Origin: Candidatus Desulfofervidus auxilii
GTDB lineage: Bacteria; Desulfobacterota; Desulfofervidia; Desulfofervidales; Desulfofervidaceae
Length of the DNA stretch: 64,000 nt
Assembly: GCF_001577525.1 (NCBI RefSeq)
Contig: NZ_CP013015.1
Location: forward strand, 911,107-975,106
Direction of reading: 5' to 3'
Shown: piece after piece, positions 1,433-59,377 of the stretch
Layout of the letters: each line of letters opens with the position of its first letter
Position numbering within the stretch: the first letter of the stretch is position 1
Notes under the pieces: generated by a model
Told to the model about the DNA's origin: nothing
The model's input: only the letters and a program-made list of their open reading frames with translations
Databases searched by the model: none
Program-made: the position numbers and the translations under genes

Positions 1433-3037
1433 CTAAATAGGGCTGCCAATTTTAACCATCTCCCTTGCATGCTCTATTGCTGCCTTATCACCCCCTAGCA
1501 TCCTTGCAATCTCATCTATCCTCTCATTACCCTCTAGCACCTTTACCCTTGTAACCGTCCTTTTATCCTTTATCTCCTTTTTGACAAAAAAGTGCCTGTC
1601 TGCAAAGGCTGCAATCTGTGGTAGGTGTGTTATGCATATTACCTGCTGTGATTCTGAAAGCTCCTTTAGCATCCTTCCAACTACCTCGCCTGTCCTTCCG
1701 CCTATGCCAACATCTACCTCATCAAATATAACTGTTGGGATGCTGTATCTTCCTGAGAGGATAGTCTTTATGACAAGTAGTACCCTGCAGAGCTCACCAC
1801 CTGATGCAGTCATTGAAAGGGGTCTAAGTGGCTCACCTGGGTTTGCAGAGAATAAAAAGCTTGCCCTTTCCTTTCCCCTCTCAGTTAGCTCTGTCCCTAT
1901 AAACTCAGTATCAAACCTTGCCCTCATATTAAGGGATAAAAGCCCCTTTTCTACCTCAGATTTAAGCCTTGCTGCTGCCTCCTTTCTCTTTTTTGACAGC
2001 TCATCTGCCCTTTGATTTAGCTCCCTTTTAAGGGCTGGTATCTCCTCACAGAGCCTTTTTACCTCCTCCTTATACTCACTGCCTGATGAAATTTCATCCT
2101 CTATCCTCTTTCTATAAGAGAGGATCTCCTCAATGCTACCACCAAACCTCTTCTTTAGGCTATCAATTAGGCTAAGCCTCTCTTCTATCTCATCCAGCCT
2201 CTCTTTATCATAGAAGACCCTTTCTGCATAATCCCTTAGTGAATATGCTATATCCTCAAGCAGATAGCGAGTTTCCTTCATCTTATCGGCTGATTCCTTA
2301 AGCCTACTGTCAATAGATGAGGCCTCAGAGAGTTCCCTCTCTATCCCTGATAGGATAGATATAATAGAGTTTTCCTTTTCATACAGTAACATATAGGAAG
2401 ATACAGCAGCCCTCTTTAGCCTCTCTGCATTAACTAATCTTTCTTTTTCTTCTAAAAGCTCCTTATCCTCACCTACCTTTAGTTTTGCCCTGTCTATTGT
2501 ATCTGCCTCAAATAAAAGAAGCGCCCTCTGCTTTTCTCTTTCCTTTATCAGCTCATTTAGATAATCTAGCCTTGCCTTTAGATAGTTTAGCCTTGTATAT
2601 CCCTCTGCTACGCTATTTCTTATTGGAAGGAGGCCACCATAGTGGTCAATTATGTCAATCTGCCTCTCCTCATCTAAAAGAAGCTCATACTCACGCTGGC
2701 CGCATATGCTAAGAAGGGGGGATATCCTCTCACAGAGCTCCTTTAGGCCTACAGGTCCTTCATTTATCCTTGTCCTTGACCTTCCCGATGTATATATTGT
2801 CCTCTCAATCTTTATCTCTTTATTTTCCTCAAAAAACTCAGCATAGACATATCCCCTCTCAGCCCCATACCTTATCATATTCCTTGGTGCCCTTTCTCCT
2901 GAAAGAAGCTTCACTGCATTTATGATAATTGACTTACCTGCCCCTGTCTCACCCGTAATTATGTTTAAGTGAGGGCAAAACTTTATATCAAGCTCATCTA
3001 TTATGGCTATATCTTTTATCTTTAGTGAGGCCAGCAT
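1433..3037 (-). CDS. recN: DNA repair ATPase RecN
   Basis: RecN is an SMC-like ATPase that acts early in double-strand break repair. This 534-residue protein has the RecN N-terminus, ATP-binding motif GETGAGKS at residues 29-36, a long charged coiled-coil middle (about 150-370), the ABC signature ASGGEL near 408 and Walker B with VIFDEVDVGIGG near 440. The length is slightly below the usual 550 or so. Translation starts at the ATG on 3037-3035. It stands alone on the minus strand, so it is probably a chromosomal gene rather than part of the conjugative element. The identification is firm. Confidence 0.95.
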   Translation of the reverse strand: MLASLKIKDIAIIDELDIKFCPHLNIITGETGAGKSIIINAVKLLSGERAPRNMIRYGAERGYVYAEFFEENKEIKIERTIYTSGRSRTRINEGPVGLKELCERISPLLSICGQREYELLLDEERQIDIIDHYGGLLPIRNSVAEGYTRLNYLKARLDYLNELIKEREKQRALLLFEADTIDRAKLKVGEDKELLEEKERLVNAERLKRAAVSSYMLLYEKENSIISILSGIERELSEASSIDSRLKESADKMKETRYLLEDIAYSLRDYAERVFYDKERLDEIEERLSLIDSLKKRFGGSIEEILSYRKRIEDEISSGSEYKEEVKRLCEEIPALKRELNQRADELSKKRKEAAARLKSEVEKGLLSLNMRARFDTEFIGTELTERGKERASFLFSANPGEPLRPLSMTASGGELCRVLLVIKTILSGRYSIPTVIFDEVDVGIGGRTGEVVGRMLKELSESQQVICITHLPQIAAFADRHFFVKKEIKDKRTVTRVKVLEGNERIDEIARMLGGDKAAIEHAREMVKIGSPI

Positions 3038-3144: not shown

Positions 3145-3303
3145 ATGATTAAAATAATACAACAGTGGTCAGAGGAGGTATAGGCGAAAGTTCGTATATC
3201 TCCCAAATTTGGTGGTATATCCGAACTATTCAGATATGAAGGAGTTAGACGTACCTCCACCAGGACTTACGGATATTTAAATGCCAATTTATTCAATAAG
3301 TGA
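3145..3303 (+). pseudogene. Short frame with one in-frame TAG
   Basis: From ATG 3145 a frame runs 12 codons to a TAG at 3181-3183, then continues open to a TGA at 3301. The part after TAG reads with protein-like composition (GGISELFRYEGVRRTSTRT). It ends inside the start of the cyclodipeptide synthase gene. It may be a small gene broken by an amber codon, a readthrough gene, or chance. Nothing in it is recognised. Confidence 0.25.
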
Positions 3304-3952
3304 AGCTCCCAAAGGGCACTATTTTATGGGTATAAGCCTAATGAGTAATGTTTTGTTCTCAAAACGAACTGTAAGACAATATTATAACGCTCTGGGAGAA
3401 AAAGCTCTTTCTTTCCTTGTTATCATTGCTGATTCTCTTGAAATGTGGAATTACGCCTACTTCAAAGGATTATCTTTATCGGAAGCAAGACAAAAAAGTC
3501 TTTTAGTTGGAAAACAATATCAATCTGGCTATCTTAAGTTGTCAAAACTTTTACCAAATTTCTACGTTTCTTTAGCCTCAGAGATTGAAACACATGATGC
3601 ATGGAAACGAATATATGAAATTCTTAGAAATTTCTATTCGGAAAATGAGCTTTTCCAAAAAGCAGTAAAGTTGCAGATAGTAGAAAATATTGGCTCTAAA
3701 TTGAAGTGCAGAGATGTCAATGGTGTCCCTGATCTTATAACAAATTATATACTTGAAGAAATTGCCATTACTGTAGGAATTTATTCTGGTATTTTGATGG
3801 AACAACGGATTCAAATATCTCCGCAATTAGACAACTTATTAGTAGACTTATACAATGGTAAGTTTCCTGAACTATCTCATAACCTTAAGATAAAATCATC
3901 AGAACTTCAATATGTAGTTTACAATCCAAAAGCCAAGGAGGAGCAACTATGA
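3281..3952 (+). CDS. tRNA-dependent cyclodipeptide synthase (CDPS)
   Basis: CDPSs use two aminoacyl-tRNAs to make cyclic dipeptides (diketopiperazines). This 223-residue protein has the CDPS size and block order. The MGIS motif places the nucleophilic serine at Ser19 (AlbC Ser37). A helical GLSLSEARQKSLLVGKQY region follows at 63-80, then a FYSENELFQKAV helix at 118-129. NYILEE at 155-160 gives Tyr156 and Glu160 (AlbC Tyr178 and Glu182). The position of AlbC Tyr202-His203 reads Ser-Pro here, nearer the XYP than the NYH subfamily. The product cannot be predicted. The ATG follows directly on an in-frame TAA, which fixes the upstream limit. The gene overlaps the transporter gene by 4 bases, so the two are probably translationally coupled. 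The alignment to AlbC is from memory. Confidence 0.78.
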   Translation: MPIYSISEAPKGHYFMGISLMSNVLFSKRTVRQYYNALGEKALSFLVIIADSLEMWNYAYFKGLSLSEARQKSLLVGKQYQSGYLKLSKLLPNFYVSLASEIETHDAWKRIYEILRNFYSENELFQKAVKLQIVENIGSKLKCRDVNGVPDLITNYILEEIAITVGIYSGILMEQRIQISPQLDNLLVDLYNGKFPELSHNLKIKSSELQYVVYNPKAKEEQL

Positions 3953-5442
3953 GTTTGCCTGATAGTATTGCGCTTATTCTAACATGTGTAACACTATTTA
4001 GGTACTTTATCATCGGTGTTCAGCGAAGTTCGCAAATAGAGACCATGGATGACTTTTTCTTTTATGGTCGCCGATTGGGCAAACTTGGCTATGAAAGGAC
4101 ATTCGTTGCTACAGGGCTCTCATTGGCTACCGTCCTTTTTTTCTTTCTTGATTTCGGTGGAAAGTTTGGTGTCCCATTGGTACTTTCACCTCTTATGTTC
4201 TGCTTAGGTACTTATATTTTCATTCTCATTCTCCCAAGGCTTCAAAAGGCTGGCTTTCTAGAAAGAGGGACAACCCTTCATAATTTTGTAGGTAAATCAT
4301 TTAATTGGAGTGCGCTAAGGTATTCAAGCGCTATTGTTTCGATACTTGGATATCTTGGAATCTTTGTTATCGAACTTTATGTTGGTGTTGAGATATTCAA
4401 AATCTTTTCCACATCCACTCAATGGACTGCGATTGTAGCCATATTCATCATGTCTCTTATTTTTATTTACACTTATCTTGGCGGCTATAAAGCAATAATT
4501 GATACGGACAGTCTTCAGTTGAAACTGATTGTTACTGGCACTTTACTTGCTCTAATTTCGCTCGTAATCTTCCAATTCAAGCTGCCGAAAACACACCCGC
4601 CTCAGTTATTTCCATTTCCCGGGTGGCTTCCTATCCCGTTCATTATAGTCATGATAATTGGGAATGTCCCATTTCAAATTTTGAGGATGAGCCACTGGCA
4701 AAGGGCTGCTGCAGTTGGGAATATGGAGATTATCAAATCAGGGTTAAAAAGGGGGATTTTCGTATCCTTCATCATCTGGATAGTATTCGGTGCGATGGGT
4801 CTCTTGTTATACTGGATAGCTAATTTGCAAAAACCTGGTGCTATTATTCTTTTGGAAATATTAAGAAATAATACCCTTCCATACAACATTATTGTATACC
4901 CTATGCTGTTTACTGCTTTTGTTGCTGCTCTTATATCCACAGCTGATACTGTTTTTATGACAGTGCTTAATTCTTACATTTATGATTTTAAACTACACAG
5001 GGACCTTCACGATGAAAATCAAGATGCCCGCCTTCAATTGGATCAACAAGTTCAAGAGAAAGGTCTTAAATCTTCAAGAAGGGCTATCCTCTTCATTTTA
5101 TTTGCAGGGGTTATTTTGTACTATGTTTTAACACAAATATTTGGTTTTGAATTTATTGATCTTCTTTTTGTTTTCTTTAATCAACAACTCGTGTTGTTCC
5201 CAGCAGTAGTTTTGGCTATCAAAGCTCCTAACGGAAGTGCTCATCCTGCCCGTTATGGGGCGCTATGTGGAATTTGGATTGGCTGGTTAGCTGTATGGGG
5301 AGTTTCGATCTATGGGAAACAGATAGACAATCCGGACCTTGTGTTATATGCCTCAGCAGTAGGCTGGCTTGTTGCTATTATTGTAACAATAGTAATTTCA
5401 TTTCGTGGAGTCTTGATCATAATGCGGAGGAAAGGAACATGA
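3949..5442 (+). CDS. SSS-family sodium/solute symporter-like transporter
   Basis: This 497-residue polytopic inner-membrane protein has about 12-13 hydrophobic segments. The family signature is seen as LGGYKAIIDTDSLQ near residues 178-192, and the TM8 motif as ALISTADTVFMT near 325. Both are hallmarks of the sodium:solute symporter (SSS, LeuT-fold) family. A TGLSLATV segment near 55 fits the sodium-site helix. The start overlaps the CDPS stop (ATGA type) with AGGAGG upstream. Position in the operon suggests it moves the cyclodipeptide, its precursor or a related compound. No substrate can be read from the sequence. Confidence 0.85.
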   Translation: MSLPDSIALILTCVTLFRYFIIGVQRSSQIETMDDFFFYGRRLGKLGYERTFVATGLSLATVLFFFLDFGGKFGVPLVLSPLMFCLGTYIFILILPRLQKAGFLERGTTLHNFVGKSFNWSALRYSSAIVSILGYLGIFVIELYVGVEIFKIFSTSTQWTAIVAIFIMSLIFIYTYLGGYKAIIDTDSLQLKLIVTGTLLALISLVIFQFKLPKTHPPQLFPFPGWLPIPFIIVMIIGNVPFQILRMSHWQRAAAVGNMEIIKSGLKRGIFVSFIIWIVFGAMGLLLYWIANLQKPGAIILLEILRNNTLPYNIIVYPMLFTAFVAALISTADTVFMTVLNSYIYDFKLHRDLHDENQDARLQLDQQVQEKGLKSSRRAILFILFAGVILYYVLTQIFGFEFIDLLFVFFNQQLVLFPAVVLAIKAPNGSAHPARYGALCGIWIGWLAVWGVSIYGKQIDNPDLVLYASAVGWLVAIIVTIVISFRGVLIIMRRKGT

Positions 5443-5897
5443 ATGTCGTAGGGAATATAAATATAATAAACATATTATTTACTTTAGTGATGACGGCAAG
5501 TGTTCCCTATGCTGCTAAGATTGGCACACGCCTCTATGTGACTAAAAAATTTTCTATGTCAAATGTTGCCAGGATTCTTCAGCTTAATTCCCCGCGAGGT
5601 TCCACATTTTCCTTAGCAGATTTACAGACTACGTCAAACAACTCCAAAATTCTTTGTCTTTACTATTATTGGTTATGGTTTACCGAAAAAGTGACACAAA
5701 TTTTTTTATTTGGAACTTTATGTCTTTTGTTTTTTGGCTTCTTGCCAATCATCCTCGGTGAAATATTCTATACAAAGACCGAGACGATAGTACTAATCGG
5801 GATAGAAATTGGAATTACAATATTTACATGGTTGCTTCGTTATATTTGTGAGGATCTTGCTTTAAGTATAGGTGTTGATTTGAAAGAAATTTGGTAA
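5439..5897 (+). CDS. Small membrane protein of the CDPS operon
   Basis: This 152-residue protein starts at ATG 5439, overlapping the transporter stop by 4 bases and preceded by GGAGGAAAGG. It has a hydrophobic N-terminal segment (about 8-28), two more at about 80-105 and 115-135, and a short polar C-terminus ending in GVDLKEIW. No enzyme motif is visible. Tight coupling to the synthase and transporter suggests a transporter accessory or a membrane tailoring partner. I do not recognise the family. Confidence 0.65.
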   Translation: MNVVGNINIINILFTLVMTASVPYAAKIGTRLYVTKKFSMSNVARILQLNSPRGSTFSLADLQTTSNNSKILCLYYYWLWFTEKVTQIFLFGTLCLLFFGFLPIILGEIFYTKTETIVLIGIEIGITIFTWLLRYICEDLALSIGVDLKEIW

Positions 5898-6349: not shown

Positions 6350-6856
6350 ATGGACAATATTATGTTAGACCTGGAAACGCTGGGCACAGTTATTACCCAG
6401 ATCGGTGCAGTGTACTTTGACTGGACAGGAAAAACCGGAGAAACTTTTCTTGTTAACGTTAACATAAAATCCTGCCTGGATAGGGACTTAGAAATCAAAT
6501 ACAAGGAACTCAAATTCTGGTTGGAAAATAGAAGCAGGATTACCTGGAACAAGAACACCATTCCTTTAACAAAGGCCCTGGAAGAGTTAACGACTTTCTG
6601 CAAAATCAACAAAAAAGCCCATGTCTGGTCACATTATTACGATATAGAAATACTGGAAAATGCCTGTCAGAAACTTGGACAAAAACTCCCATTTCACTAT
6701 ACAAGATGGAAGGATATCAGGACTTTGGTGTTTTTGGCAGGACTTCAAAAAGAAAGGAAAGAAAATAATAAAGACCCAAAAACACATAACGCACTGGATG
6801 ATTGTTTATATCAGATAAGTTATTGTTGTAAGGCATATAAATTGCTGAAAAAATAA
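6350..6856 (+). CDS. DEDDh 3'-5' exonuclease, Rv2179c-like
   Basis: This 168-residue protein starts at ATG 6350 behind GGAGG. The opening MLDLETLGT gives the first Asp and Glu of the exonuclease (DnaQ/RNase T) superfamily. IGAVYFDWTGKTG follows, as in the Rv2179c-like 3'-5' exoribonuclease family (PF16473). A WSHYYDIEIL segment near 87 supplies the second Asp, and THNALDD near 145-151 the final His and Asp. The motif set is complete, so activity is likely. It stands alone between the remnant region and a convergent minus-strand gene. Substrate, RNA or DNA, is undetermined. Confidence 0.8.
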   Translation: MDNIMLDLETLGTVITQIGAVYFDWTGKTGETFLVNVNIKSCLDRDLEIKYKELKFWLENRSRITWNKNTIPLTKALEELTTFCKINKKAHVWSHYYDIEILENACQKLGQKLPFHYTRWKDIRTLVFLAGLQKERKENNKDPKTHNALDDCLYQISYCCKAYKLLKK

Positions 6857-6928: not shown

Positions 6929-8716
6929 CTATGCAGCATGTAACTTCTGTGCGAGTCTTTGTTTTCTGTGTCGGTCAATAATCATGGTTTTTCCCAAAAT
7001 GGGAAGGCCGTTGTTAAGAACATTACTGTTGCGGAATTTCCTGATTAAAACTGCAATATCTCCCGTCTCTAAGTCGGTCTCCGCCGCCAGCTGAAGAACT
7101 ATGCTGGAATTCCAGACACGGTCCAATAAGAGCCATGCCCTTTTCTCAAGAATTGGAGCAGGAACACGCTCCATCCAGACATGGCGTTTTCTGTTACCAT
7201 TGTCGGGAAAAAATCTTGAATTCTGGATGAGAAACCTGGAATCACCATGTGGAATAAACTGAATGACAGGATCTCCTTCACGCACCCATTTCATGGGAAC
7301 GTGAAATAACCTGACTTCTGTCTCACGAACCTGTTTTAACGCCGTGGGTGTCCCGAAAAACGAGGACCTGTTTAAAAAAACTTCCTGTGTTGCTGGTGGC
7401 CGAATCTGTTTAAGAAAACGCTGCCGGGCATCCCTTTCCAGTTCCTTCAGTGTAGGCCAAACGTCCTGCCATAACCACTCATAAGCATCTCTAATCTGGC
7501 TACCGGTTTCTAAATACAATTTTTGACTCAGTTTTTTATACTGCTCCCAGAGTTGTTTCTTTTCCTCATAGACCTTAGAAGCCGATTTTGTAAACACAAT
7601 CTCTTCTACTTTCAACCGTTGCCACAAATCCTGACCCTTCTTCTGGATTAACCGCCTGCATAAACACAAATCCGTCCGAACATCACTCTCAAGCTGCTGT
7701 ATCTTCTCTCTGTATTTAGCTTTGGCTCTTGACAACTTCTTTCTCCAGAACTTTTTTAATTCCCTTTCCTGCAACTTTAGCTCTCTTTTCCACTGCCGAT
7801 ATTCCTTCCACCACTGCCTGACCACAGATAACCACCGCCGGTAATTCCGCTCATTCCGCCGTCGCTCGGCAACATAAATCTCATTTATGTCCTTCCGTAT
7901 CTCCTTCAGCTTCCTGTTTCGTTCCAGCTTCAACTGAGCAATTTCTGCCTCCACCTGTCTCTTTAAGCATTTGAATGCCCGTCTGTACTCCAGGCCACCC
8001 CGTCTGCGCCAGCACCTCAAGGCTGATTTTTGCATCTGCCGGTATAAACTTTCCTTCGGATTCCAGATGTGCCAGACCTTGTTTGATGTCCTGTACTCTT
8101 TCACCTTGAAAGTTTTGACCGGGAAATCAAGAACATTTATCACCTTGACTGTTTCATGCCCACGAGCTACAGGTTTTTCACTGAAGCGAACTTTAGAATC
8201 AATCTCCACTCCTGGCCATCTATTAAAATCGATGGAACAAAAACCAATAAACCGCTTCAGGAAATCTTCATCAATGATCTTCTGCCAGAGAATTTTCCCA
8301 CGAAGGTAACTGCCAGGGTAAGTGTCATCTTCCCACAGCAAGTGCACACATCTTTTTAATAACTTTTCTTTCTCAGCCTCTTCTTTCTCTTGTTCTCTCA
8401 TCGTAAGAGCAACATCAACACTCAACAATTCCGCTCTTTCACTTTCCGCCTGATAAAGCAAGCTCTGCCGCAATTCTTCAGCCACTCTCTGCCTATCTTC
8501 CTCGGTAACTTCCCCGGCATCCTGAAGTTCAGCATTCACATAAGAAGAAATATCCGCCCGACCATCCATAAGACTCACAATTCTCTCCTCAATTTCTTTT
8601 ACCTGGCGGGCCAGCTCATGCTGCGTGGCCCAATATTTCTCCTCCCAGGCTTCATCCAATTCCATGCTTTCCTGTATATGGAAAGCCTCTCCTAATGTTA
8701 CTAATGCTCCCATCAC
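6929..8716 (-). CDS. Large Trp- and Arg-rich coiled-coil protein of unknown function
   Basis: This 595-residue protein starts near 8716-8713 behind GAAAGGAGGAAAG. Residues 1-120 are acidic and helical. The middle (about 230-420) is very rich in R, K, E and W, with repeats of the type RQWWKEYRQWKREL, and is predicted to be a long basic coiled coil. The C-terminal 170 residues look globular (FFGTPTALKQVRET, IQFIPHGDSRFL). No catalytic motif, Walker box or signal peptide is seen. It is the only long minus-strand gene between 6.3 and 36 kb and is divergent from the 485-residue gene. The basic coil could bind nucleic acid, which is inference. Confidence 0.7.
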   Translation of the reverse strand: MMGALVTLGEAFHIQESMELDEAWEEKYWATQHELARQVKEIEERIVSLMDGRADISSYVNAELQDAGEVTEEDRQRVAEELRQSLLYQAESERAELLSVDVALTMREQEKEEAEKEKLLKRCVHLLWEDDTYPGSYLRGKILWQKIIDEDFLKRFIGFCSIDFNRWPGVEIDSKVRFSEKPVARGHETVKVINVLDFPVKTFKVKEYRTSNKVWHIWNPKESLYRQMQKSALRCWRRRGGLEYRRAFKCLKRQVEAEIAQLKLERNRKLKEIRKDINEIYVAERRRNERNYRRWLSVVRQWWKEYRQWKRELKLQERELKKFWRKKLSRAKAKYREKIQQLESDVRTDLCLCRRLIQKKGQDLWQRLKVEEIVFTKSASKVYEEKKQLWEQYKKLSQKLYLETGSQIRDAYEWLWQDVWPTLKELERDARQRFLKQIRPPATQEVFLNRSSFFGTPTALKQVRETEVRLFHVPMKWVREGDPVIQFIPHGDSRFLIQNSRFFPDNGNRKRHVWMERVPAPILEKRAWLLLDRVWNSSIVLQLAAETDLETGDIAVLIRKFRNSNVLNNGLPILGKTMIIDRHRKQRLAQKLHAA

Positions 8717-9018: not shown

Positions 9019-10476
9019 ATGGAAAAAGAGCTCACCTTCGAACTTTATGAAATCAAGGATGCACTTAATCTTGATGATTCCTCTTATATCAAACTGCGTA
9101 CTGAACTGCGTAAAAAGGGCGTACTTGCGCCTCCACAGGTAGGCAGAAGGGCCGTTTTTGGAAAGGAAGCAATACCGGCAATAAAAGATTATCTTGACAG
9201 CAAGGACAAAAGACTTGGGGAAAAATTTATCGTGTGGTTCCTCACAAAAAGGAAAAAATGGGTTAAGAGCCAGGAAGAAATCAAAAACCTTAAAGTAGAT
9301 AGCAGCCAGGTTGTATTCAGGCAGGTTATGGAACAGTTAGGGGTAGATAAGGAGACACGTGAATATCGCAGCCTTCTTGAGAAATTAAAGGGTGAGGGAA
9401 TTGCAAAGGTCTATGGGATCATAGGGAAGCAGATCACATATATAAACCCGACAGAGAGGTTTTTTGAAATAGTATCTCAGTACCTCAATGTATCCCCCAA
9501 AAAGGTGGCAGAGGCTGTTGAACGAATTGAGAACAGCAATGAGGTAGAACTGCTTGACTATATGACAAGGATAGGGGCAATGCCCTATTACAAACATGTC
9601 TACAACTATCTGCGTGGAAGGAATGCCGTTATCAAGGGGAAATACGTGAAGATCAAAAAGGAAGCAATAGCCTATATTAAGGAATATCTTACAAAGAAAA
9701 AGTCCCCTGCAACTGAACGGATAACAGAAGCCATCCCGCAGACTTCTGCTACCTCTCAAGAAGGAACCAGACCCAAGGCCTCTCACTCAGAGCTGACTCA
9801 GATGGAAAGGCTTGTTGACATTGCCTTTAGAAAAGAAAAGATTATCATAAGAAAGATTCTCCTTTCTGAGGCAAGGCAGCACAATCCTATCTCCCTGCTA
9901 TCCTTTCCAGGAATGACCTGGTTTTTTGAAAGGGACCTTATTGCACTTGCAGGAGAGAATATCAGCCAGATTGTAGGGCTTGAGAGGGACAAAAGAGTCT
10001 ATGAGTTTATGGTTTTGAACAAGCCACCAGAAAAGTCTTACATCCACACCTTCAACACAACTGACCATGAATTTGCCAAAAACCCACCCAATTACATTAA
10101 GCCGTTCAACTTTGTGTGGCTTGATTATATGGGTGCTTTTTCCTGGAAAAAGCTTGAGACATTTGAGGACCTGTTAAAGAACAGACTTTTCTGCCTTCCC
10201 GCCACACTTGCCCTTACATTCCAGGCAGGTCTGGAATATTCAGATGTACTGGACTATTACAAAAAAGTCACCAGGATGAAACCTGCTGCTAAAGGAAGAA
10301 AACCTGACTGGAAGATGATACGCCTCACTGCCCTCCCCATGATTTATGCTCAAACCGCAAGTAAATACGGAGTTTCGTGTTATAAAGTAATCGAAAGAGA
10401 ATATGTTGAGCCGGTGAAAATGTGTCATCATGCCCCCATGGTACTGCTTGTGTTAAGGCTGGAAAACAAATATTAA
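9019..10476 (+). CDS. Two-part protein: HTH-like N-terminus, possible methyltransferase-fold C-terminus
   Basis: This 485-residue protein starts at ATG 9019 behind AAGGAG. The N-terminal 230 residues are basic and helical with several winged-helix-like stretches (SYIKLRTELRKKGVLAPPQVGRR). After a low-complexity linker (about 230-255) the C-terminal part has FPGMTWFFERDLIAL, VGLERDKRVYEFM and NFVWLDYMGAFSW. This order resembles the SAM-site, acidic-residue and DY/D-proline-type strands of a Rossmann methyltransferase. A canonical glycine-rich loop is missing. The assignment is tentative. The gene heads the run leading to dnaN. Confidence 0.6.
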   Translation: MEKELTFELYEIKDALNLDDSSYIKLRTELRKKGVLAPPQVGRRAVFGKEAIPAIKDYLDSKDKRLGEKFIVWFLTKRKKWVKSQEEIKNLKVDSSQVVFRQVMEQLGVDKETREYRSLLEKLKGEGIAKVYGIIGKQITYINPTERFFEIVSQYLNVSPKKVAEAVERIENSNEVELLDYMTRIGAMPYYKHVYNYLRGRNAVIKGKYVKIKKEAIAYIKEYLTKKKSPATERITEAIPQTSATSQEGTRPKASHSELTQMERLVDIAFRKEKIIIRKILLSEARQHNPISLLSFPGMTWFFERDLIALAGENISQIVGLERDKRVYEFMVLNKPPEKSYIHTFNTTDHEFAKNPPNYIKPFNFVWLDYMGAFSWKKLETFEDLLKNRLFCLPATLALTFQAGLEYSDVLDYYKKVTRMKPAAKGRKPDWKMIRLTALPMIYAQTASKYGVSCYKVIEREYVEPVKMCHHAPMVLLVLRLENKY

Positions 10477-10880: not shown

Positions 10881-11990
10881 ATGAAAGCAAGGGTAAAAAC
10901 ACAGGACTTTGCCAGCGTCCTTCACAAGGCATGTTCTGTTATATCAAAAAAACAGGTCATGCCCATACTTTCCCACATATTAATCAAAACAAAAGATAAT
11001 GCACTCCGGGTAACTGCAACAGACCTTGAACACACATACATCGGTTCATGTCCCGCACAGATAGAAATCGAAGGAGAAGTGGTCGTCCCCGCAATACAAC
11101 TGTTTTACATAGTTAGAAACCTGGATGTGGAAGAAATCCCCCTATGTAAAAACGAAAACAACCAGCTTGACATAAAAACACCAAAAAGCCATTTTTCACT
11201 CCTAACCATGGATCCCCAGGAATTTCCCACACTGGAAGTTCCGGAGAACCTGCCGGCACTCACTCTACCCCTAGATAAACTTAAGGAGACAATAAACAAC
11301 ATCATACCCTGCACAGCTCCAGACCCCTACGATTATGTTGCACAGAGTATTGCATGTGAAAAACGTGATGAAGAACTACGGTTTGTAGCCACAGACCGGC
11401 GCAAACTCGCATATTCCTCAATACAGACCTCAGTTCCAGATGACTTTCCAAAAATGTCCCTGATTTCAGGAAATGTAATAAACAAAATACTGTCCCTCGT
11501 ACAAACCGAAACCGTCTCCATGGGATTCAACCAGAATATAGGTGTAGTACAGACAGACTCAGAAATATTTTTCTTCAGGCTTACCGAAGGATCATTTCCG
11601 GCATACGAAAAAGTAATTCCCACCAAGACAGGATTTCAGATACAAATTGATACACAAAAACTCAAAGATGCTATAAACAGAGTGAAAATAGTAAAACCAG
11701 AAGTCATAAAGTTTACCTTTGAAAGAGAAAAACTAACACTTTTCTGCAAAGGACCTGAAATCGGAGAAGCACGTGAGGAAGTTCCCATTAACAACGGACC
11801 GCAAACTCCCCAGAGCCTTAACCTGATAGCAGAAACTCTTCCCAGGCTTATCAGTCCGTTGCACTGCAGCACCATTACCCTATCCTTCACATCTCCAGAA
11901 GATCCCTGCACCATAACCACTCCAGATAACCCAAATTACATCTCGGTCTTCATGCCAGCAATCTCTGTCGAGGTAGAAGAACAGGTATGA
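10881..11990 (+). CDS. dnaN: DNA polymerase III sliding clamp (beta subunit)
   Basis: DnaN is the ring-shaped processivity factor of the replicative polymerase. This 369-residue protein has the normal length and three-domain layout. The N-terminus contains ACSVISKKQVMPILSHILI, domain 1 has TATDLEHTYIG, and domain 2 has FVATDRRKLAYS. The last stretch, YISVFMPA, corresponds to the usual YxxMPM C-terminal motif. The start ATG 10881 follows AAGGAGG. A second clamp-like gene lies at 33522. A dnaN on an element implies that it tunes host polymerase or carries its own replisome. Confidence 0.95.
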   Translation: MKARVKTQDFASVLHKACSVISKKQVMPILSHILIKTKDNALRVTATDLEHTYIGSCPAQIEIEGEVVVPAIQLFYIVRNLDVEEIPLCKNENNQLDIKTPKSHFSLLTMDPQEFPTLEVPENLPALTLPLDKLKETINNIIPCTAPDPYDYVAQSIACEKRDEELRFVATDRRKLAYSSIQTSVPDDFPKMSLISGNVINKILSLVQTETVSMGFNQNIGVVQTDSEIFFFRLTEGSFPAYEKVIPTKTGFQIQIDTQKLKDAINRVKIVKPEVIKFTFEREKLTLFCKGPEIGEAREEVPINNGPQTPQSLNLIAETLPRLISPLHCSTITLSFTSPEDPCTITTPDNPNYISVFMPAISVEVEEQV

Positions 11991-13033: not shown

Positions 13034-13173
13034 AGAACTGCTTCAGGCCTCATCAGGCAAAAACTCCACTATAGCATAATACACCACCCCCAGCAAAAAA
13101 GTGACAGATCTTCTGCAAAAATGCGCCATAACCGCCTTTGAACTTATTCATAGCCCAATTTTATGATACACTC

Positions 13174-14490
13174 ATGATAGTCCGTCAAGCCTACAAATTT
13201 AGACTAAAGACCAATGAAGAATTAGAGCAAAAACTGGTTCAATTTTCTGGCTGCTGTCGCTTTGTCTGGAATAAGGCAATTGCTCTAATCAAATTTAGGC
13301 TTGATCATAACATTTCCATTCCCTGGTATAATGACATGGCGGGTTTTCTTGGCCTCTGGAAAAGAAGTGAAGAGTATGCTTTTTTGAATGACGCCCACTC
13401 TCAGATTCTTCAGCAAACCCTTAAAGACCTCTACAAAGCCATTGAGTCAGCCTTTGCCAGAGGAAACGGCATAAGGTTTCCGAAATTCAAAAAGAAATAT
13501 CGTCATGATTCTTTTCGTTACCCTCAAGGAGTCAAGATAGATAATAGGCGAATATTCCTCCCCAAGATTGGTTGGGTAAGGTTTTACAAATCAAGGGAAA
13601 TAGAAGGCAAGATTAAACAGGTAATCGTTAAAAGAGAGTATAAACACTGGTATGTAAGTGTAATCACAGAAAAGGAAGTAGAACCAATTACCAGACTACA
13701 CAGTCCAATCGGCATTGATCTTGGTGTTAGAAAAATCATAACTCTTTCTGATGGAACATATTTTAAGCCACTTGATTTGACCAAACTAGAAAAGAAGCTC
13801 AAAAGAGAACAACGCAGGCTAGCCAAAAAGAAGAAATTTTCTAAAAACTGGTATAAACAAAAAGCTAGAATTACAAAACTCTGGCAGAAGATAAAAAACA
13901 AGAGATACGACTATGTTCACAAACTCTCAACCGCTATTGCCAAAAACCACGGCATAGTGGTTGTGGAGGATTTAAGAATAAAAAACATGACCAGATCAGC
14001 CAGAGGAACCATTGACAATCCTGGCTACAATGTCAAGCAAAAAGCGGGACTTAACAGGAGCATTCTGAGACAGGCGTGGGGAATATTTTTAAGGCTGCTT
14101 GAGTACAAACTTGAGTGGAGTGGTGGCAGGCTGGTGGTAGTTAATCCCAGGTATTCTTCTTTTACCTGCCCTGTTTGCGGTCTTACAAGCAGAGAGAACA
14201 GAAAAAGCCAGGCGAGGTTTGTATGCGAGAACTGCGGTTTTGAAGCCAATGCTGATTTTGTGGCAGCACTAAACATTCTTGAAAGAGGTTTTAAGAACCT
14301 GTCTGAAGATTTGTGTTTTCTTACCCAAAAGAGAATCAAAGAACTGGTTTTAGAACTATCTACCGCCGGGACGGCGGGAGGTAATGCCTGTGGAGGGAGT
14401 GCATTGCTCCCTGTGAAGCAGGAACCGGCAGGAAACCGTGAGGGAGTAATGCTCCCTGTTAAACTAAAACAGGGAATCCTCTCCCTTTAG
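13174..14490 (+). CDS. tnpB: RNA-guided nuclease TnpB
   Basis: TnpB is the transposon-encoded ancestor of Cas12 and cuts DNA using an omegaRNA made from the element's right end. I start at ATG 13174 (MIVRQAYKFRL), because TnpBs begin with this block and the 12 codons before it are not conserved-looking. RuvC residues are all visible: Asp182 in GIDLGVRK, Glu265 in VVVEDLRIKNM and Asp361 in NADFVAALNI. The zinc ribbon uses CPVC at 332-335 and CENC at 351-354. It therefore looks catalytically intact. The length of 438 residues is normal. Confidence 0.92.
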   Translation: MIVRQAYKFRLKTNEELEQKLVQFSGCCRFVWNKAIALIKFRLDHNISIPWYNDMAGFLGLWKRSEEYAFLNDAHSQILQQTLKDLYKAIESAFARGNGIRFPKFKKKYRHDSFRYPQGVKIDNRRIFLPKIGWVRFYKSREIEGKIKQVIVKREYKHWYVSVITEKEVEPITRLHSPIGIDLGVRKIITLSDGTYFKPLDLTKLEKKLKREQRRLAKKKKFSKNWYKQKARITKLWQKIKNKRYDYVHKLSTAIAKNHGIVVVEDLRIKNMTRSARGTIDNPGYNVKQKAGLNRSILRQAWGIFLRLLEYKLEWSGGRLVVVNPRYSSFTCPVCGLTSRENRKSQARFVCENCGFEANADFVAALNILERGFKNLSEDLCFLTQKRIKELVLELSTAGTAGGNACGGSALLPVKQEPAGNREGVMLPVKLKQGILSL

Positions 14491-14523: not shown

Positions 14524-17019
14524 ATGACAGGATACGTAATCAAGAGAGATGGAAAAAAAGTAGCCTTTGACTGCTGTAGAATCACAAAGGCAGTAGAAAA
14601 AGCGTTTAAGGCCTCAAAAGAGGTAAACTCACCCCAGGCAGCAGCCTGGCGTGTAACAGCAATGGTCCTTAAGTGGCTTGATGAGGAAGGCAAAGATACA
14701 GTCCACCTGGAACATATCCAGGACCTGGTTATAAGAGCACTTCACACCCTGGGCTACCATCAGACAGAAATCCGTTATGCCATCTACAGACACATGCACC
14801 AGCAGGCAAGAGTAAGCCGTGCAGGTCTTCTTGATGTAAATGATGTAATAGAAAACTACATCAAAGACCACGACTGGAGGGTATGGGAAAATGCAAATAT
14901 AGGATTCGGGTTTGGAGGGTTGCTCCTCCACTCAGCAGGTGCAATGATTGCCAACTACGTGCTGAATTATATTTACCCGGAAGAAATCGCTAATGCACAC
15001 AGAGAAGGTTTTTTCCATATCCACGATCTGAGCATGGGTATTACTGGATATTGCTGTGGCCATTCACTGAGACAGCTGTTACTTGAAGGTTTTGGTGGAG
15101 TAACAGGAAAAACCTCGGCCATGCCCCCAAAACACTTCGGCTCAGCACTCCTTCAGATGGTAAACTATCTGGGTACATTGCAAAACGAATGGGCAGGCGC
15201 CCAGGCATTCAACAATGTTGATACATTACTTGCTCCATTTGTCAGAGCCGATTGCCTTTCTTATAAAGAAGTCAAACAGGAAATCCAGCAGTTTATTTTT
15301 AATCTCAATGTCACTTCCAGATGGGGAGGACAATGTGTACCTACCGAAACTGAATGCCTTACACCACAAGGCTGGAAAAAATATAATGAGTTAAAAATAG
15401 GTCAAAAAATAGTTACCTTTGATATAAAAACACAATCTTTTAAAGAAGACACCCTTTTAAAGGTAAATGTCTATCCCTACAAGGATTACCTCTACACTAT
15501 TGGAAACCAGGTAGTTACCCCCAATCACAGAGTGGTCGTCTGCCAACAAGATGGCATTTACAAACTCATAGAAGCACCATTCTTACTATATCACATTGAC
15601 AGATTCTCCATACCCCACGGATATCCTCAGGTAAAAAACGTTCCTCTTTCTAAATTGAAACTCAACACCCTGTTCTATGAAGGGAAAGTCTGGTGTCCCA
15701 CCACAAAAACAGGCACCTTCATTGCCAGAAGAAACGGCGACGTCTTTATTACAGGTAACTCTCCCTTTACCAACATTACCCTGGATTTCACCATACCCGA
15801 GTACCTCAAAAAAGAAGCTGCCATCGGTCCGGGTGGAAAAACCCTCGATGCCACCTATGGAGATTACCAGAAAGAGGTTGACATGATCAACAGAGCATTC
15901 CTTGAGGTAATGCTTGAGGGAGATGCTCAGGGAAGAATCTTCCCATTCCCCATACCAACCTACAACATAACCAGAGACTTCAACTGGGACAGCGAAAATA
16001 CAAAATTACTCTTTGAGATAACAGCAAAGTATGGAATCCCATATTTTCAAAATTTCATAAATTCAGCTCTTAAGCCTCAAGACGTAAGGAGTATGTGCTG
16101 CAGGCTGAACATGAATCTGAAAGAATTACGCCATAAAACTGGTGGTTTATTTGCCTCAGGAGATACTACTGGCAGTATTGGTGTAGTGACTTTGAACTTA
16201 CCCCGTTTAGCCTACCTGGCAAAGAAAAATGGAGAAGAATTTTTTGCACTTATTGAACAATACATGGAACTTGCAAAAAATAGCCTGGAGATAAAAAGAA
16301 AACTCCTTGAAAGAAACCTTGAAAGAGGACTCTTTCCGTTTACAAAAAGGTATCTGCCCAGAGGATTCAGCACATTTTTTTCCACCATCGGATTGATAGG
16401 AATGAACGAAGCCTGTCTGAACCTTACCGGTGAAGACATCAGTGCAGAAGAAGGTCAGAAGCTGGCCATCGCCACACTCTCCTTCATGAGGGAAAAACTC
16501 AAGCAGTTTCAGCAGGAAACAGGCCACCTCTATAATCTGGAAGCAACACCAGCAGAAGGCACCAGCTTCCGTCTGGCAAAAATAGACAAAAAAGACTTCC
16601 CGGATATCCAGACCGCCGGCACAGACAACTCTCCTTACTACACAAACTCCACTCAGTTACCTGTAAATTATACTGATGACCTGGTCTCTGCCCTGGAACA
16701 CCAGGAACCACTCCAGTGCCTCTATACAGGTGGAACGGTCTTCCACTGCTTCCTTGGTGAAAGACTGCCTGATACCACAACCTGTAAACTTCTGGTGAAA
16801 AAGATACTATCAAATTTCAGATTTCCCTATCTTTCTATCACACCAACTTTCAGCATCTGCCCTCAACATGGCTATCTGAGCGGTGAGCACTTCCAGTGCC
16901 CTCAATGCGGAGAAGAATGCGAAGTCTACTCCCGTGTGGTTGGCTATTATCGACCGGTCAAAAACTGGAACAAAGGAAAAAAACAGGAATTTAAAGAAAG
17001 AAAAACATTTAAGATATAA
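14524..17019 (+). CDS. nrdD: Anaerobic ribonucleoside-triphosphate reductase with mini-intein
   Basis: NrdD makes deoxyribonucleotides without oxygen through a glycyl radical. The 831-residue precursor has an ATP-cone N-terminus (about 1-95), the catalytic barrel, a C-terminal zinc site (ICPQHGY and CPQCGEEC) and the radical loop SRVVGYYRPV near the end. An insertion of 142 residues (271-412) splits the conserved SRWGGQ-SPFTN segment. It starts with Cys and ends with Asn, so it is an intein, leaving a 689-residue enzyme after splicing. ATG 14524 follows GGAGG. No nrdG activase gene is in the window, so activation must come from elsewhere. Carrying NrdD suggests the element needs extra nucleotides in an anaerobic host. 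Confidence 0.93.
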   Translation: MTGYVIKRDGKKVAFDCCRITKAVEKAFKASKEVNSPQAAAWRVTAMVLKWLDEEGKDTVHLEHIQDLVIRALHTLGYHQTEIRYAIYRHMHQQARVSRAGLLDVNDVIENYIKDHDWRVWENANIGFGFGGLLLHSAGAMIANYVLNYIYPEEIANAHREGFFHIHDLSMGITGYCCGHSLRQLLLEGFGGVTGKTSAMPPKHFGSALLQMVNYLGTLQNEWAGAQAFNNVDTLLAPFVRADCLSYKEVKQEIQQFIFNLNVTSRWGGQCVPTETECLTPQGWKKYNELKIGQKIVTFDIKTQSFKEDTLLKVNVYPYKDYLYTIGNQVVTPNHRVVVCQQDGIYKLIEAPFLLYHIDRFSIPHGYPQVKNVPLSKLKLNTLFYEGKVWCPTTKTGTFIARRNGDVFITGNSPFTNITLDFTIPEYLKKEAAIGPGGKTLDATYGDYQKEVDMINRAFLEVMLEGDAQGRIFPFPIPTYNITRDFNWDSENTKLLFEITAKYGIPYFQNFINSALKPQDVRSMCCRLNMNLKELRHKTGGLFASGDTTGSIGVVTLNLPRLAYLAKKNGEEFFALIEQYMELAKNSLEIKRKLLERNLERGLFPFTKRYLPRGFSTFFSTIGLIGMNEACLNLTGEDISAEEGQKLAIATLSFMREKLKQFQQETGHLYNLEATPAEGTSFRLAKIDKKDFPDIQTAGTDNSPYYTNSTQLPVNYTDDLVSALEHQEPLQCLYTGGTVFHCFLGERLPDTTTCKLLVKKILSNFRFPYLSITPTFSICPQHGYLSGEHFQCPQCGEECEVYSRVVGYYRPVKNWNKGKKQEFKERKTFKI
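15334..15759 (+). other. Mini-intein inside nrdD
   Basis: The intein codes for 142 residues. Block A begins CVPTETECLTPQGWKKYNEL, Block B is VTPNHRVVV with the TxxH histidine, and Block F reads VWCPTTKTGTFIARRNGDVF. The junction is ITGN followed by Ser as the +1 extein residue. No homing endonuclease domain fits, so it is a mini-intein. The penultimate residue is Gly instead of the usual His, a variant known in some inteins. Confidence 0.9.
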
Positions 17020-41878: not shown

Positions 41879-43333
41879 ATGATTTCTATGGAGGCGTGGG
41901 TAACTATCAGGTATTTAAGGGCTCAGGGAAGATCTATAAAGGGCATTGCTCGGGAGTTAGGTATTTCTAAAAACACTGTAAGGAGGGCTTTAAAGGCAAA
42001 TAAACCACCTCACTATCAAAGACCTCCAAGAGATAATCCTCAGTTAATTAAACTTAAGGAGCAAATTGAAGAGATGCTTTTTGAAAAGGAATTTATAGGC
42101 ACAAGAATTTTAAAAGAGATACAGCAAATAGGCTACACAGGTTCTAAATCTGCTTTTTATAGATTTCTCTCAAAGTTAAAGGCAGAAAAAGGCAATGGGA
42201 AGGCAGTAGAGCGATTTGAGACCCCTCCTGGTCATCAGGCCCAGTTTGATTGGTCTGCTTATACAGTGATGATTGGAGGGAAGTTAAAAAGAGTGATTAT
42301 ATTTTCTTTTATTCTCTCCTATAGCCGAAGAAAACACTTTTTTGCTTCTTTAAGGGAAGACCAGCTCTCTTGTTTTGAGGCATTAGAAGATAGTTTTCAC
42401 CACTTTGGTGGTGTACCAAAAGAGATACTAGTAGATAATGCGGCTCAGTTTGTAATTTCAAGGGTAGGGCATATAATAAAGTGGAATCCTCGTTTTCTTG
42501 AGTTTTGCGGTCATTATAGAATAAAGCCAGTTGCTTGTAAGGTAAAAAGGCCTAAGACAAAGGGTAAAGTAGAAAGGCCATTTTATCCTCTTGAGCAGCA
42601 TTTTATAAAAGGAAGGGAATTTGAAAGCTTTGAAGAATTTATTAAAAAGCTTCATGAGTATGAAAGAGAGCTTGATTATGTTACTCACTCTACCATAAGC
42701 CTTAGACCCATTGATAGATTTTTAAAAGAAAGCTCATTTCTCATTCCCTTACCAGAGACTCCTTTTATAAGCACAAAGGAGATATTTAGGAAGGTAACCT
42801 CTGATTGTCTTATCTCTTATGATGGCAATAGATATAGTGTTCCCTGGCCTTATGCAGGAAAGCATGTGTGGATAAGGGTATCTCAGGGCAGATATCTTAA
42901 AGTATTTTCTCAAAAAGGGGTGCTTATTGCTACTCATACTATAAGTGAAAACAAAGGGATGAGTATTATCAATCAAAAACATTATGAAGGTTTAAGAAAG
43001 AGGCTCCCCAGGACAAAGAAGCTACTTGAAGAGGCATTTTTAGAAAAGTTTTCTGAAGCAAGGTCATTTTTAGAAGGACTTGTTGTGCAACAGAAATTTA
43101 ATGCAAGCTATCATTTAAGAGAGATTTTAAAACTGGCAGAGGTTTATAAAAAAGAAGACATGCACAAGGCATTCTCCTTGGCCATAAGCTATAATACATA
43201 CTCTGTTAATTTCATAAGGGGTATTTTAGAAAAAGAAGGAGAACTAGAGGAACAAAGACCTACCTTTACTTTAAGGCCGCTACCCAGACTTAAGATAAAA
43301 AGGGAATTGGGTTTTTATAATCAATTTCTTTAA
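41879..43333 (+). CDS. istA: IS21-family transposase IstA
   Basis: The 484-residue product has an N-terminal helix-turn-helix (YLRAQGRSIKGIARELGISK, then NTVRRALK). The DDE core starts with AQFDWSAYTVMIGG, then EILVDNAAQFV and TKGKVERPFYPLEQHF for the second Asp and Glu region. The C-terminal part has YSVPWPYAGKHVWIRV, typical of IstA. Length is normal and intact, so the IS is probably active. Confidence 0.93.
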   Translation: MISMEAWVTIRYLRAQGRSIKGIARELGISKNTVRRALKANKPPHYQRPPRDNPQLIKLKEQIEEMLFEKEFIGTRILKEIQQIGYTGSKSAFYRFLSKLKAEKGNGKAVERFETPPGHQAQFDWSAYTVMIGGKLKRVIIFSFILSYSRRKHFFASLREDQLSCFEALEDSFHHFGGVPKEILVDNAAQFVISRVGHIIKWNPRFLEFCGHYRIKPVACKVKRPKTKGKVERPFYPLEQHFIKGREFESFEEFIKKLHEYERELDYVTHSTISLRPIDRFLKESSFLIPLPETPFISTKEIFRKVTSDCLISYDGNRYSVPWPYAGKHVWIRVSQGRYLKVFSQKGVLIATHTISENKGMSIINQKHYEGLRKRLPRTKKLLEEAFLEKFSEARSFLEGLVVQQKFNASYHLREILKLAEVYKKEDMHKAFSLAISYNTYSVNFIRGILEKEGELEEQRPTFTLRPLPRLKIKRELGFYNQFL

Positions 43334-44597: not shown

Positions 44598-46034
44598 ATG
44601 CTAAGGCCGGCAGATATTAAACAGAGTATTGATCTGGTCAGTATCATCTCTGAATCAGTACAGCTGAAACGTAGCGGAAGACGCCTCATGGGACTCTGCC
44701 CGTTTCATTCAGAAAAACACCCCAGCTTCTGTGTAGACCCTGAAAAACAGCTTTTCTACTGCCACGGCTGCGGTGCAGGTGGAGACGTCTTTAACTTCGT
44801 AATGAAGCTCCATAACTATTCATTCCATGAAGCCCTTACCTTTCTTGCAGAAAAAGCAGGCATCAGGGAAATTGAAGATGAAAGGCTGAAATTCCTCAAG
44901 CAACTCCAGACACTATTCCGAAAAACCCTTCTTCTCTCACAGAAGGCAAAGATATATCTCACCAAAAGAAAGATAACCCCTGAAAAGGCAGAACATTTTG
45001 GCATGGGACTTGCCCCAAAAAACCTGCTTCAAATCCTCAAAGAAAAAAACCAGCTGCTTCAGGCACAGATGTCAGGTTTTAAAAACGAGAACTTTATTCG
45101 ACTGCTTCAGGGAAGGCTCACGCTTCCTTTCTACGATAGATGCGGGAATCTGGTGGGGTTTGCTGCAAGAACACTGAATAATCAGGTCCCAAAATACATA
45201 AATACTGAAGAAACCGAGTTTTTCAAAAAGAAAAACCTCCTTTTTGGTCTTAACTTCCTCCAGCACAAAGAAAAAGTTTATATTGTAGAAGGGTATTTCG
45301 ACTGTATCTCATGTTTGATTAACGGAATACCCTCTGTGGCCGCAGGCAGTACCTCTCTTACCACACATCAGGCAAAACTGCTCAAGGGTTTTGACAGGGT
45401 GGTTGTTGCTTTTGATGGAGATCATGCCGGGAAAAAGGCAACAATGCGTGCCTTTAAGATACTGGTAGCTGCCGATATCTACCCCCATGCCATCTTTTTG
45501 CCTGAAGGAGAAGACCCTGATTCACTGCTGAGAAAAGGCAAAAAAGAGCAATTCTTACGCCTTCCTGAAAAAGATCTTTTCAAACTCATCATAAACACAA
45601 TTGAAAAACTCCCACCACAGAAAGCAATAACAAAACTGAACAATCTGGCAGGTTTTCTGGCAAATATACACTCACCTCTGTCAAAACTTCTCCTCCAACA
45701 GATCAGAAAAACCTTCTCCATAAAAATAGAAAAGCAAACAAGAAAACACCTGGAGACGGAAGAACAAATCCTTCAGATTCTCCTCTCCAGTCCAGAACTG
45801 GTAGAAAATCTTGAAAAAAGACAATTATTTGAGGCAATGGAAAATTCCGAAATAAGGAAAACACTTAAATATTTTGCAAAACATAAAACACTCCCCGAAG
45901 GACATACCCACATGAACCTGCTTGCCAGAGCCAGCATCTATCCAGCTCAAAAAAATCTCATAGAAAGGGCCATAAGATACCTTGAAAGAAAAAAAGTCTG
46001 CCGGGAAATAGTCTGCCCCTCTGAAAAATCATAG
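44598..46034 (+). CDS. dnaG: DnaG-type DNA primase
   Basis: DnaG makes RNA primers for replication. The product is 478 residues, shorter than chromosomal DnaG (about 600) because the helicase-binding C-terminus is reduced. The CHC2-type zinc site is C34, H37, C55 and C58 (CPFH and CHGC). The catalytic part has FYDRCGNLVGFAAR, then the Toprim motifs YIVEGYFDCI and VVAFDGDHAGKKA. It should work with the DnaB-like helicase at 52475. Confidence 0.93.
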   Translation: MLRPADIKQSIDLVSIISESVQLKRSGRRLMGLCPFHSEKHPSFCVDPEKQLFYCHGCGAGGDVFNFVMKLHNYSFHEALTFLAEKAGIREIEDERLKFLKQLQTLFRKTLLLSQKAKIYLTKRKITPEKAEHFGMGLAPKNLLQILKEKNQLLQAQMSGFKNENFIRLLQGRLTLPFYDRCGNLVGFAARTLNNQVPKYINTEETEFFKKKNLLFGLNFLQHKEKVYIVEGYFDCISCLINGIPSVAAGSTSLTTHQAKLLKGFDRVVVAFDGDHAGKKATMRAFKILVAADIYPHAIFLPEGEDPDSLLRKGKKEQFLRLPEKDLFKLIINTIEKLPPQKAITKLNNLAGFLANIHSPLSKLLLQQIRKTFSIKIEKQTRKHLETEEQILQILLSSPELVENLEKRQLFEAMENSEIRKTLKYFAKHKTLPEGHTHMNLLARASIYPAQKNLIERAIRYLERKKVCREIVCPSEKS

Positions 46035-52474: not shown

Positions 52475-53806
52475 ATGAAAAACCTGTTTGAAGTAGAAGC
52501 AGCAATAATCGGAGCAATCATTGACAGACCGGAACTGTTCCTGAAACTCAATGAGAAGCTTTCGCCTTCTGACTTCTCTCCGCAGAGCAGGCTGATATTC
52601 ACAGCAATAAAAGAACTATTTTCTGAGACCGGTAAAGTTGATTTTCCCTCTCTTCTCAATAAACTCAACAAAAAAGTTGATGCCAGTGTGCTTAAAGCCA
52701 TTGCCGAATACGGAGGCTTCACCGTTGACGTTGACAATGCAGCTGAACTCCTGAAAAAAGCCAGCCTCAAAAGAAAGCTTGAGTCAGCACTTTCAGGAAC
52801 ACTAAAGCAGCTGTCTCAAAATGCCGAACCAGAAGAAACAGCAAGAAAGCTTGAATATACACTCTGCCAGATACTTTCGCAGAAATATAGATATAACCCG
52901 GAAATACCTGATCTGCTAACAGAATATGAACTCTTTGTCAGGGAATTAAAGAGAAACCCCTGGCTACCGCTTCCTTTCACAAGAATACAACAGGCAATTG
53001 GAGGAATTATCCCGGGAACATTCTGGATACTCGGAGGTTATACCAGCAGGGGCAAAACTTCAACCGTGGTGGAACTGGCAACCTATCTCCTCAAAAAAGA
53101 TGCTGTGGTTGTCCATTTTTCCCTTGAAGAAGAGAGAAAATTGACCGTGTCAAGGTACCTGGCAAACCTTACAGGAATTCCCATTCTCGCACAGCTTAAA
53201 GAAAAACTGAACGGAGAGGCTGCCAGAACCCTGGAAGATGCAAAAACCTATCTTTCCAGCAAGTCCCTTTACATCTACGATGATGTTTTTGACCTCCAGG
53301 ATATTTACTTCAGATCACAATTTGTCCAGACAGAAAAGGGTAAAATTGATTTAATAATAATTGACTACATTCAGCTAGTAAGAATTCACGGCTGTAGAAA
53401 CCTTACGGAAAAGATGGATGCAGCAGCAATCACCTTTCGTGAAATATCAAAAAGGCTAAATACAACGGTCATAGCAATTTCACAGATAGGAAGGGAATAT
53501 ACAAGGGAATCGGCAGCTATAGGCTTCAAGGGAAGCGGAGGCCTTGAAGCTGCCTGTGATATAGGACTCTGGATAGACCCCGTGCCGGATAAAGAAAGGC
53601 AATTTTACCTGAAATTGAGAAAGCACCGGCTTGGACCAACAGGAATTTTCCTCATGGAATTTACAAATACCTTCACCTCAGTGAGAGAAGTAAACGATAA
53701 AAACACAAAAAATGAGTTTGATAAAACTCCAGGCCAGATTGAAACCAGCATTGACGAATCCCGGGAGTTTTTTGAAGAAAACCTGGAAGAAATTGATGAG
53801 TACTGA
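52475..53806 (+). CDS. dnaB: DnaB-type replicative helicase
   Basis: The 443-residue product has the DnaB N-terminal helical domain (EAAIIGAIIDRPELFLKL), a RecA-type core with Walker A GGYTSRGKTS near 190, and Walker B IDLIIIDYIQLV. VIAISQIGREYTRES and AACDIGLWIDP fit motifs H3/H4 region and the arginine finger area. It would drive the fork and bind the DnaG primase encoded at 44598. ATG 52475 follows AAGGGGAAA. Confidence 0.92.
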   Translation: MKNLFEVEAAIIGAIIDRPELFLKLNEKLSPSDFSPQSRLIFTAIKELFSETGKVDFPSLLNKLNKKVDASVLKAIAEYGGFTVDVDNAAELLKKASLKRKLESALSGTLKQLSQNAEPEETARKLEYTLCQILSQKYRYNPEIPDLLTEYELFVRELKRNPWLPLPFTRIQQAIGGIIPGTFWILGGYTSRGKTSTVVELATYLLKKDAVVVHFSLEEERKLTVSRYLANLTGIPILAQLKEKLNGEAARTLEDAKTYLSSKSLYIYDDVFDLQDIYFRSQFVQTEKGKIDLIIIDYIQLVRIHGCRNLTEKMDAAAITFREISKRLNTTVIAISQIGREYTRESAAIGFKGSGGLEAACDIGLWIDPVPDKERQFYLKLRKHRLGPTGIFLMEFTNTFTSVREVNDKNTKNEFDKTPGQIETSIDESREFFEENLEEIDEY

Positions 53807-59280: not shown

Positions 59281-59377
59281 TCAATCAGTTTCCCCTGCTG
59301 CCTCTTTTAATTTTACAGCAAGTTGTTCCATGGTAAAAGGCTTCTGGAGAAAAGTCCCCCGTGGTTTCTTCATCTTA
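59281..59377 (-). pseudogene. Detached C-terminus of the hybrid histidine kinase
   Basis: The minus strand reads GTFLQKPFTMEQLAVKLKEA, then stop at 59281. LQKPF is the conserved Lys-Pro region closing a receiver domain. It belongs to the kinase gene at 60592-62055 and has been separated from it by the IsrB element. Confidence 0.75.

Follow-up and report, generated by a model that had tools for sequence, protein, structure and literature searches.

The 64,000-nucleotide stretch analysed here (the window) contains three overlapping genes that were initially read as a cyclodipeptide synthase (CDPS), an SSS-type transporter and a small membrane protein. The question is whether these genes together make and move a dipeptide product, and whether their arrangement is new. 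Our best reading is a probably acquired, low-GC dipeptide production-and-transport operon of known kind, in which the active site of the enzyme carries an unusual substitution.

Layout and setting of the operon

The three ORFs (Table 1) lie on the forward strand and the ORF1/ORF2 and ORF2/ORF3 junctions each consist of a 4-base ATGA overlap, as had been claimed from the sequence at the outset. Because of this overlap co-translation is expected. Translational coupling is also plausible from the Shine-Dalgarno-like sites upstream of the ORF2 start (AAGGAGG) and the ORF3 start (CGGAGGAAAGG). ORF1 starts directly 3′ of an in-frame TAA, and no feature was found tied to position 3145, where the locus had first been taken to begin. 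No tailoring enzyme is encoded within the three-gene operon, a point counted against the best explanation.

Table 1. Features in the window, numbered from its first nucleotide
Feature	Position	Strand	Remarks
ORF1	3281-3952	+	223 aa, diverged CDPS homologue
Ser180-Pro181 codons of ORF1	3818..3823	+	apparently at catalytic Tyr202 / XYP-type Pro203; aligned to 9gun EIYP and chlamydial GIYVGDTNYSLILYP
ORF2	3949-5442	+	497 aa, remote SSS-family Na+/solute symporter
ORF3	5439-5897	+	152 aa small membrane protein, three hydrophobic helices, possible symporter partner
recN	1433-3037	-	operon flank, named from its own sequence
Rv2179c-like exonuclease	6350-6856		other flank of the operon
Long ORF	6929-8716	-	595 aa, strongly charged; no Pfam or PHROGs match
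Long ORF	9019-10476	+	485 aa; no Pfam or PHROGs match
DNA polymerase beta clamp	10881-11990		in putative replicon
IS605 OrfB	13138-14490		in putative replicon
Anaerobic ribonucleotide reductase	14524-17019		in putative replicon
Mu-type transposase	41879-43333		in putative replicon
DnaG primase	44598-46034		in putative replicon
DnaB	52475-53806		in putative replicon
Sigma-70 factor	57201-58076		in putative replicon
RRXRR-domain protein (PF14239)	59375-60592	-	adjoins PAS histidine kinase
PAS histidine kinase with receiver domain	60592-62055		adjoins RRXRR-domain protein

The GC content of ORF1, ORF2 and ORF3 is 0.33, 0.39 and 0.34, respectively, and that of recN is 0.42; the corresponding GC3 values are 0.26, 0.35 and 0.33 for the three ORFs and 0.41 for recN. 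When the ORF1 protein was searched against 198 genomes, comprising its own genome and relatives, the window itself was the sole match. Acquisition of the operon is likely, as ORF1 was found in none of the 197 other genomes chosen as relatives, and the low GC and this absence fit the uptake of a self-contained cassette. Among four family members, the surroundings of recN have nothing else in common with window positions 1-24 kb, so that neither an empty insertion site nor a boundary can be read from them.

By its gene content, the region 9000-64000 of the window resembles a large mobile replicon in integrated form. In addition to the genes listed in Table 1, it carries ParB-like genes, an N6 methyltransferase, SNF2 and UvsW-like helicases and an SbcC-like ATPase. 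The two long ORFs of 595 and 485 aa are transcribed divergently.

ORF1 and its active site

ORF1 is a diverged CDPS homologue, as judged by sequence comparison. The NCBIfam profile for tRNA-dependent cyclodipeptide synthase, TIGR04539, matches residues 12-196 with E 1.3e-7 and 31.4 bits, which is below the curated cut-off of 45 bits. The Pfam CDPS profile PF16715 (curated cut-off 27 bits), which the initial annotation had proposed for this purpose, gives no match up to E 1. Both the sub-threshold score and the missing Pfam match were counted against the best explanation. The P. gingivalis CDPS (PDB 9gun) is the only solved relative with a significant E-value, 1.4e-6 over residues 15-163. A two-sequence profile, made from 9gun and a complete chlamydial CDPS (L055, which belongs to PF16715), gives ORF1 38.7 bits, the maximum of 500 block-shuffles being 10.5 bits. 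Taken together, these results make ORF1 a remote CDPS homologue rather than a member at the curated threshold; the homology proposed from the motifs is upheld, through TIGR04539 and not through Pfam. The single-sequence AlphaFold2 model of ORF1 has a mean pLDDT of 33.5, too low for judging the class I aminoacyl-tRNA synthetase-like (HUP) Rossmann fold.

The residues of the CDPS mechanism are S37, Y178, E182 and Y202 in AlbC numbering, and residues 40 and 203 distinguish the NYH from the XYP subfamily (PMC13062777). The XYP subfamily is characterized by X40, Tyr202 and Pro203, in contrast to Asn40, Tyr202 and His203. The alignment gives S19, Y156 and E160 of ORF1 as the equivalents of AlbC S37, Y178 and E182, and all of the residues originally named are present: Ser19 in GIS, the Tyr156 and Glu160 of NYILEE, and the pair Ser180-Pro181. 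The Ser-Pro pair had been taken for a diverged second pocket, but Ser180 aligns with the catalytic Tyr202, not with a pocket residue, and Pro181 with the Pro203 of the XYP type.

The XYP-subfamily CDPSs (9gun; Nbra-CDPS) are similar in length to ORF1, can be aligned with it over residues 11-203 and likewise have the Ser37/Tyr178/Glu182 and Pro203 equivalents. They possess Tyr202, whereas ORF1 has Ser there by alignment. In addition, the nucleophile of ORF1 is followed by an extra residue (GISLMSN vs GISINH), and its WSDI block, unlike theirs, is without the W. An insertion of one residue blurs the position of residue 40 in ORF1, near which N23 lies.

The tails compared at the Tyr202 position are DMYVLEEVAGLLTMSEHLGYTCEIYPGED for 9gun, QYLLEELPTLLDGIYVGDTNYSLILYPT for the chlamydial CDPS and NYILEEIAITVGIYSGILMEQRIQISPQLD for ORF1. 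The ISP of ORF1 was placed on LYP/IYP because of the GIY-G block common with the chlamydial CDPS and because of the profile alignment; with this placement S180 stands in for Y202 and P181 corresponds to Pro203. The Tyr202 position lies 24 residues after that of Tyr178 in ORF1, the chlamydial CDPS and AlbC alike. The local alignment of S180 is of moderate reliability, as MAFFT on three sequences puts Y168 of ORF1 at the Tyr202 position and a forced global profile alignment puts a later tyrosine near it. ORF1 appears to be without Tyr202, the ring-closing tyrosine, and to have S180 in its place. In one search a guessed tail was added to the query so as to bring out the C-terminus of 9gun, and the 9gun letters used are those printed for the chain. 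Some search alignments held invented rows, which served for searching alone; none of the conclusions depends on invented letters.

The symporter and the small membrane protein

ORF2 is a remote but genuine SSS symporter by sequence, for which sodium coupling is predicted. PF00474 (Pfam SSF) gives no match to it up to E 1, nor does the own-genome search. BLASTP against a confirmed PF00474 protein gave 26% over 222 aa with E 6e-9. In hmmsearch, a profile built from SSS proteins of related genomes scored residues 11-484 at 42.4 bits, the maximum of 500 block-shuffles being 4.4 bits and the score of the reversed sequence lying below zero. These values bear out the SSS assignment made at first sight. 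ORF2 has the SSS-family LGG-KA-TD-LQ and AA-ST-D stretches, and DDFFFYGRRLG from residue 34, YLGGYKAIIDTDSLQ from residue 176 and S330-T331 in AALISTADT were read from it. Ser330-Thr331 lies where we would expect the Na2-site residues (PutP/vSGLT). The SSS proteins are mostly uptake systems and sodium-coupled.

ORF3 shows hydropathy peaks at residues 3-21, 88-106 and 115-133, and its model, of low to modest confidence (pLDDT 65.8), contains helices at 3-34, 67-110 and 114-143. No Pfam family, DUF485 included, matches ORF3 up to E 1, PADLOC gives no match, and a search of 267 genomes returned no credible relative. The idea of ORF3 as a shared family was dismissed, since these genomes yielded only matches of E about 0.006-0.01, most with an internal stop. 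A defence-system reading of the locus was likewise rejected, there being no PADLOC match. From its position and the precedent of acs-yjcH-actP, ORF3 may be an accessory subunit of the symporter.

That precedent is an acetate assimilation operon in which an enzyme is paired with the uptake of its own substrate. It combines an enzyme, a small membrane protein and an SSS symporter in one operon, as here, and small membrane partners of SSS proteins are already known. In contrast to YjcH of the ActP-YjcH pair, ORF3 has 152 aa, three helices and no DUF485 or other Pfam match, and the enzymes of the two operons are unrelated. A 2014 review documented that TonB receptors, ABC transporters, sodium solute symporters and MFS transporters often occur near CDPS genes, and the published view is that nearby transporters export the product (PMC4159871). 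Since sodium solute symporters are named there, the transporter pairing is known in outline, and the suggestion that CDPS-SSS proximity had gone unreported has to be given up. The present operon resembles those clusters, known by the statement of the review, in that a CDPS gene lies near an SSS-type transporter. It differs from them in containing no oxidase, methyltransferase or regulator and in having a small membrane protein as its third coupled gene. DUF202, a bacterial membrane protein domain, was found in a later global survey among the most recurrent unannotated neighbours of CDPSs (PMC5767969). Of the initial claim to a new production and transport locus, the operon itself is real, and its novelty is weakened by the known pairing and by the small-partner parallel in acs-yjcH-actP.

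Relatives, rival readings and meaning

Across about 1,290 genomes, TIGR04539 found the window, a truncated gene, a clear CDPS and a false match, the last being lysine-rich and rejected (L053/L057). The truncated CDPS-like gene (L004 1312-2912; also L056) belongs to another genome of the phylum of the window and matches the profile only at positions 21-120. A transposase-like ORF, read from the sequence, follows it directly, as if the gene had been truncated by insertion. The complete CDPS (L055 3185-3934; also L054), of XYP type with LYP and PF16715 E 4.7e-13, comes from a genome of the Chlamydiota group (the phylum of Simkaniaceae), and no tailoring or SSS transport genes were seen around it. 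Neither an SSS gene nor an ORF3-like gene was found beside these two loci within the stretch fetched. No relative was obtained by tblastn against plasmids and phages, or by scans of viral contigs, one of which used ORF2. A genome-contig scan with a narrow pattern matched 16 stretches, none of them a relative, and another narrow one, with a DNA pattern fixing the spacing of the ORF1 motif, yielded 47 loci that phmmer did not relate to any of the three proteins. As these scans reach only a small share of possible relatives, they do not show absence elsewhere. The proposed conservation of the two membrane genes beside CDPS homologues found no support in a second copy or in the two other CDPS loci. 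That these narrow searches returned no second operon was counted against the best explanation.

The best explanation, which we hold at about even chances, is an operon whose three genes make and transport a tRNA-derived dipeptide product, with a cyclic dipeptide released. ORF1 would take an aminoacyl-tRNA to give aminoacyl-Ser19, and a second aminoacyl-tRNA would convert this to dipeptidyl-Ser19. The cyclic dipeptide would then be released, probably slowly, and Ser180, another hydroxyl or water would act as proton relay in place of Tyr202. ORF2, with ORF3 as accessory subunit, would move the product or a precursor across the inner membrane. As SSS proteins are mostly sodium-coupled uptake systems, product recapture or precursor import would be at least as likely as export. 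We counted for this explanation the TIGR04539 and 9gun matches, the retained S37/Y178/E182 equivalents, the profile score far above shuffles, the SSS assignment, the gene overlaps, the low GC, the absence in 197 genomes, the reported CDPS-SSS proximity (PMC4159871) and the acs-yjcH-actP precedent.

The serine at a strictly conserved position is counted against release of a cyclic product. Tyr202 is reported to be strictly conserved and needed for ring closure: in AlbC Y202F the aminoacyl-enzyme still forms while the dipeptidyl-enzyme accumulates, and calculations found Ser or Thr less suited than Tyr as proton relay (PMC5935735). ORF1 might thus be a non-cyclising CDPS relative that stops at the aminoacyl- or dipeptidyl-enzyme and yields a linear dipeptide or transfers to another acceptor, the symporter carrying product or acceptor. 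The alignment of S180 with IYP in 9gun and LYP in the chlamydial CDPS, behind the same GIY-G block, speaks for this. Nevertheless, we consider it rather unlikely, as that alignment is only moderately reliable, with Y168 and Y191 as alternatives at the Tyr202 position, and the operon encodes no acceptor or downstream enzyme. Somewhat less probable still is a CDPS branch without the ring-closing tyrosine that would use charged tRNAs to make a linear dipeptide or to aminoacylate another acceptor; a sodium symporter dedicated to the product would move it, together with a small membrane subunit of a new type.

The symporter and ORF3 could instead supply amino acids or another solute and be merely co-regulated with ORF1, with no transport of its product. 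The general uptake function of SSS proteins favors such a role, as does the pairing of an enzyme with the uptake of its own substrate in acs-yjcH-actP, but the two 4-base overlaps argue for tight coupling and the published view is one of product export (PMC4159871), which leaves it improbable in our judgement. We regard it as very unlikely that ORF1 has decayed into a catalytically dead CDPS that survives as a remnant or as a regulatory protein. The loss of a strictly conserved catalytic residue, the family score below cut-off and the truncated gene beside a transposase-like gene in the same phylum would fit decay; against it, the reading frame is open over its full length, ORF1 retains Pro203 together with three of the four catalytic residues, and the coupled genes are intact.

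With the production-and-transport operon as the best reading, what is new here is the serine in the place of ring closure, the strong divergence seen in each of the three proteins and the minimal form of the operon, with its three genes. In the literature searched, the substrate and direction of SSS transport near CDPS genes are not established, and this operon is a minimal case, made up of an enzyme, a symporter and a small membrane protein and free of tailoring enzymes. The essentiality of Tyr202 has so far been argued from AlbC mutants and calculations; if the change from Tyr202 to Ser is real, ORF1 would be a naturally occurring test of the need for this tyrosine in closing the ring.
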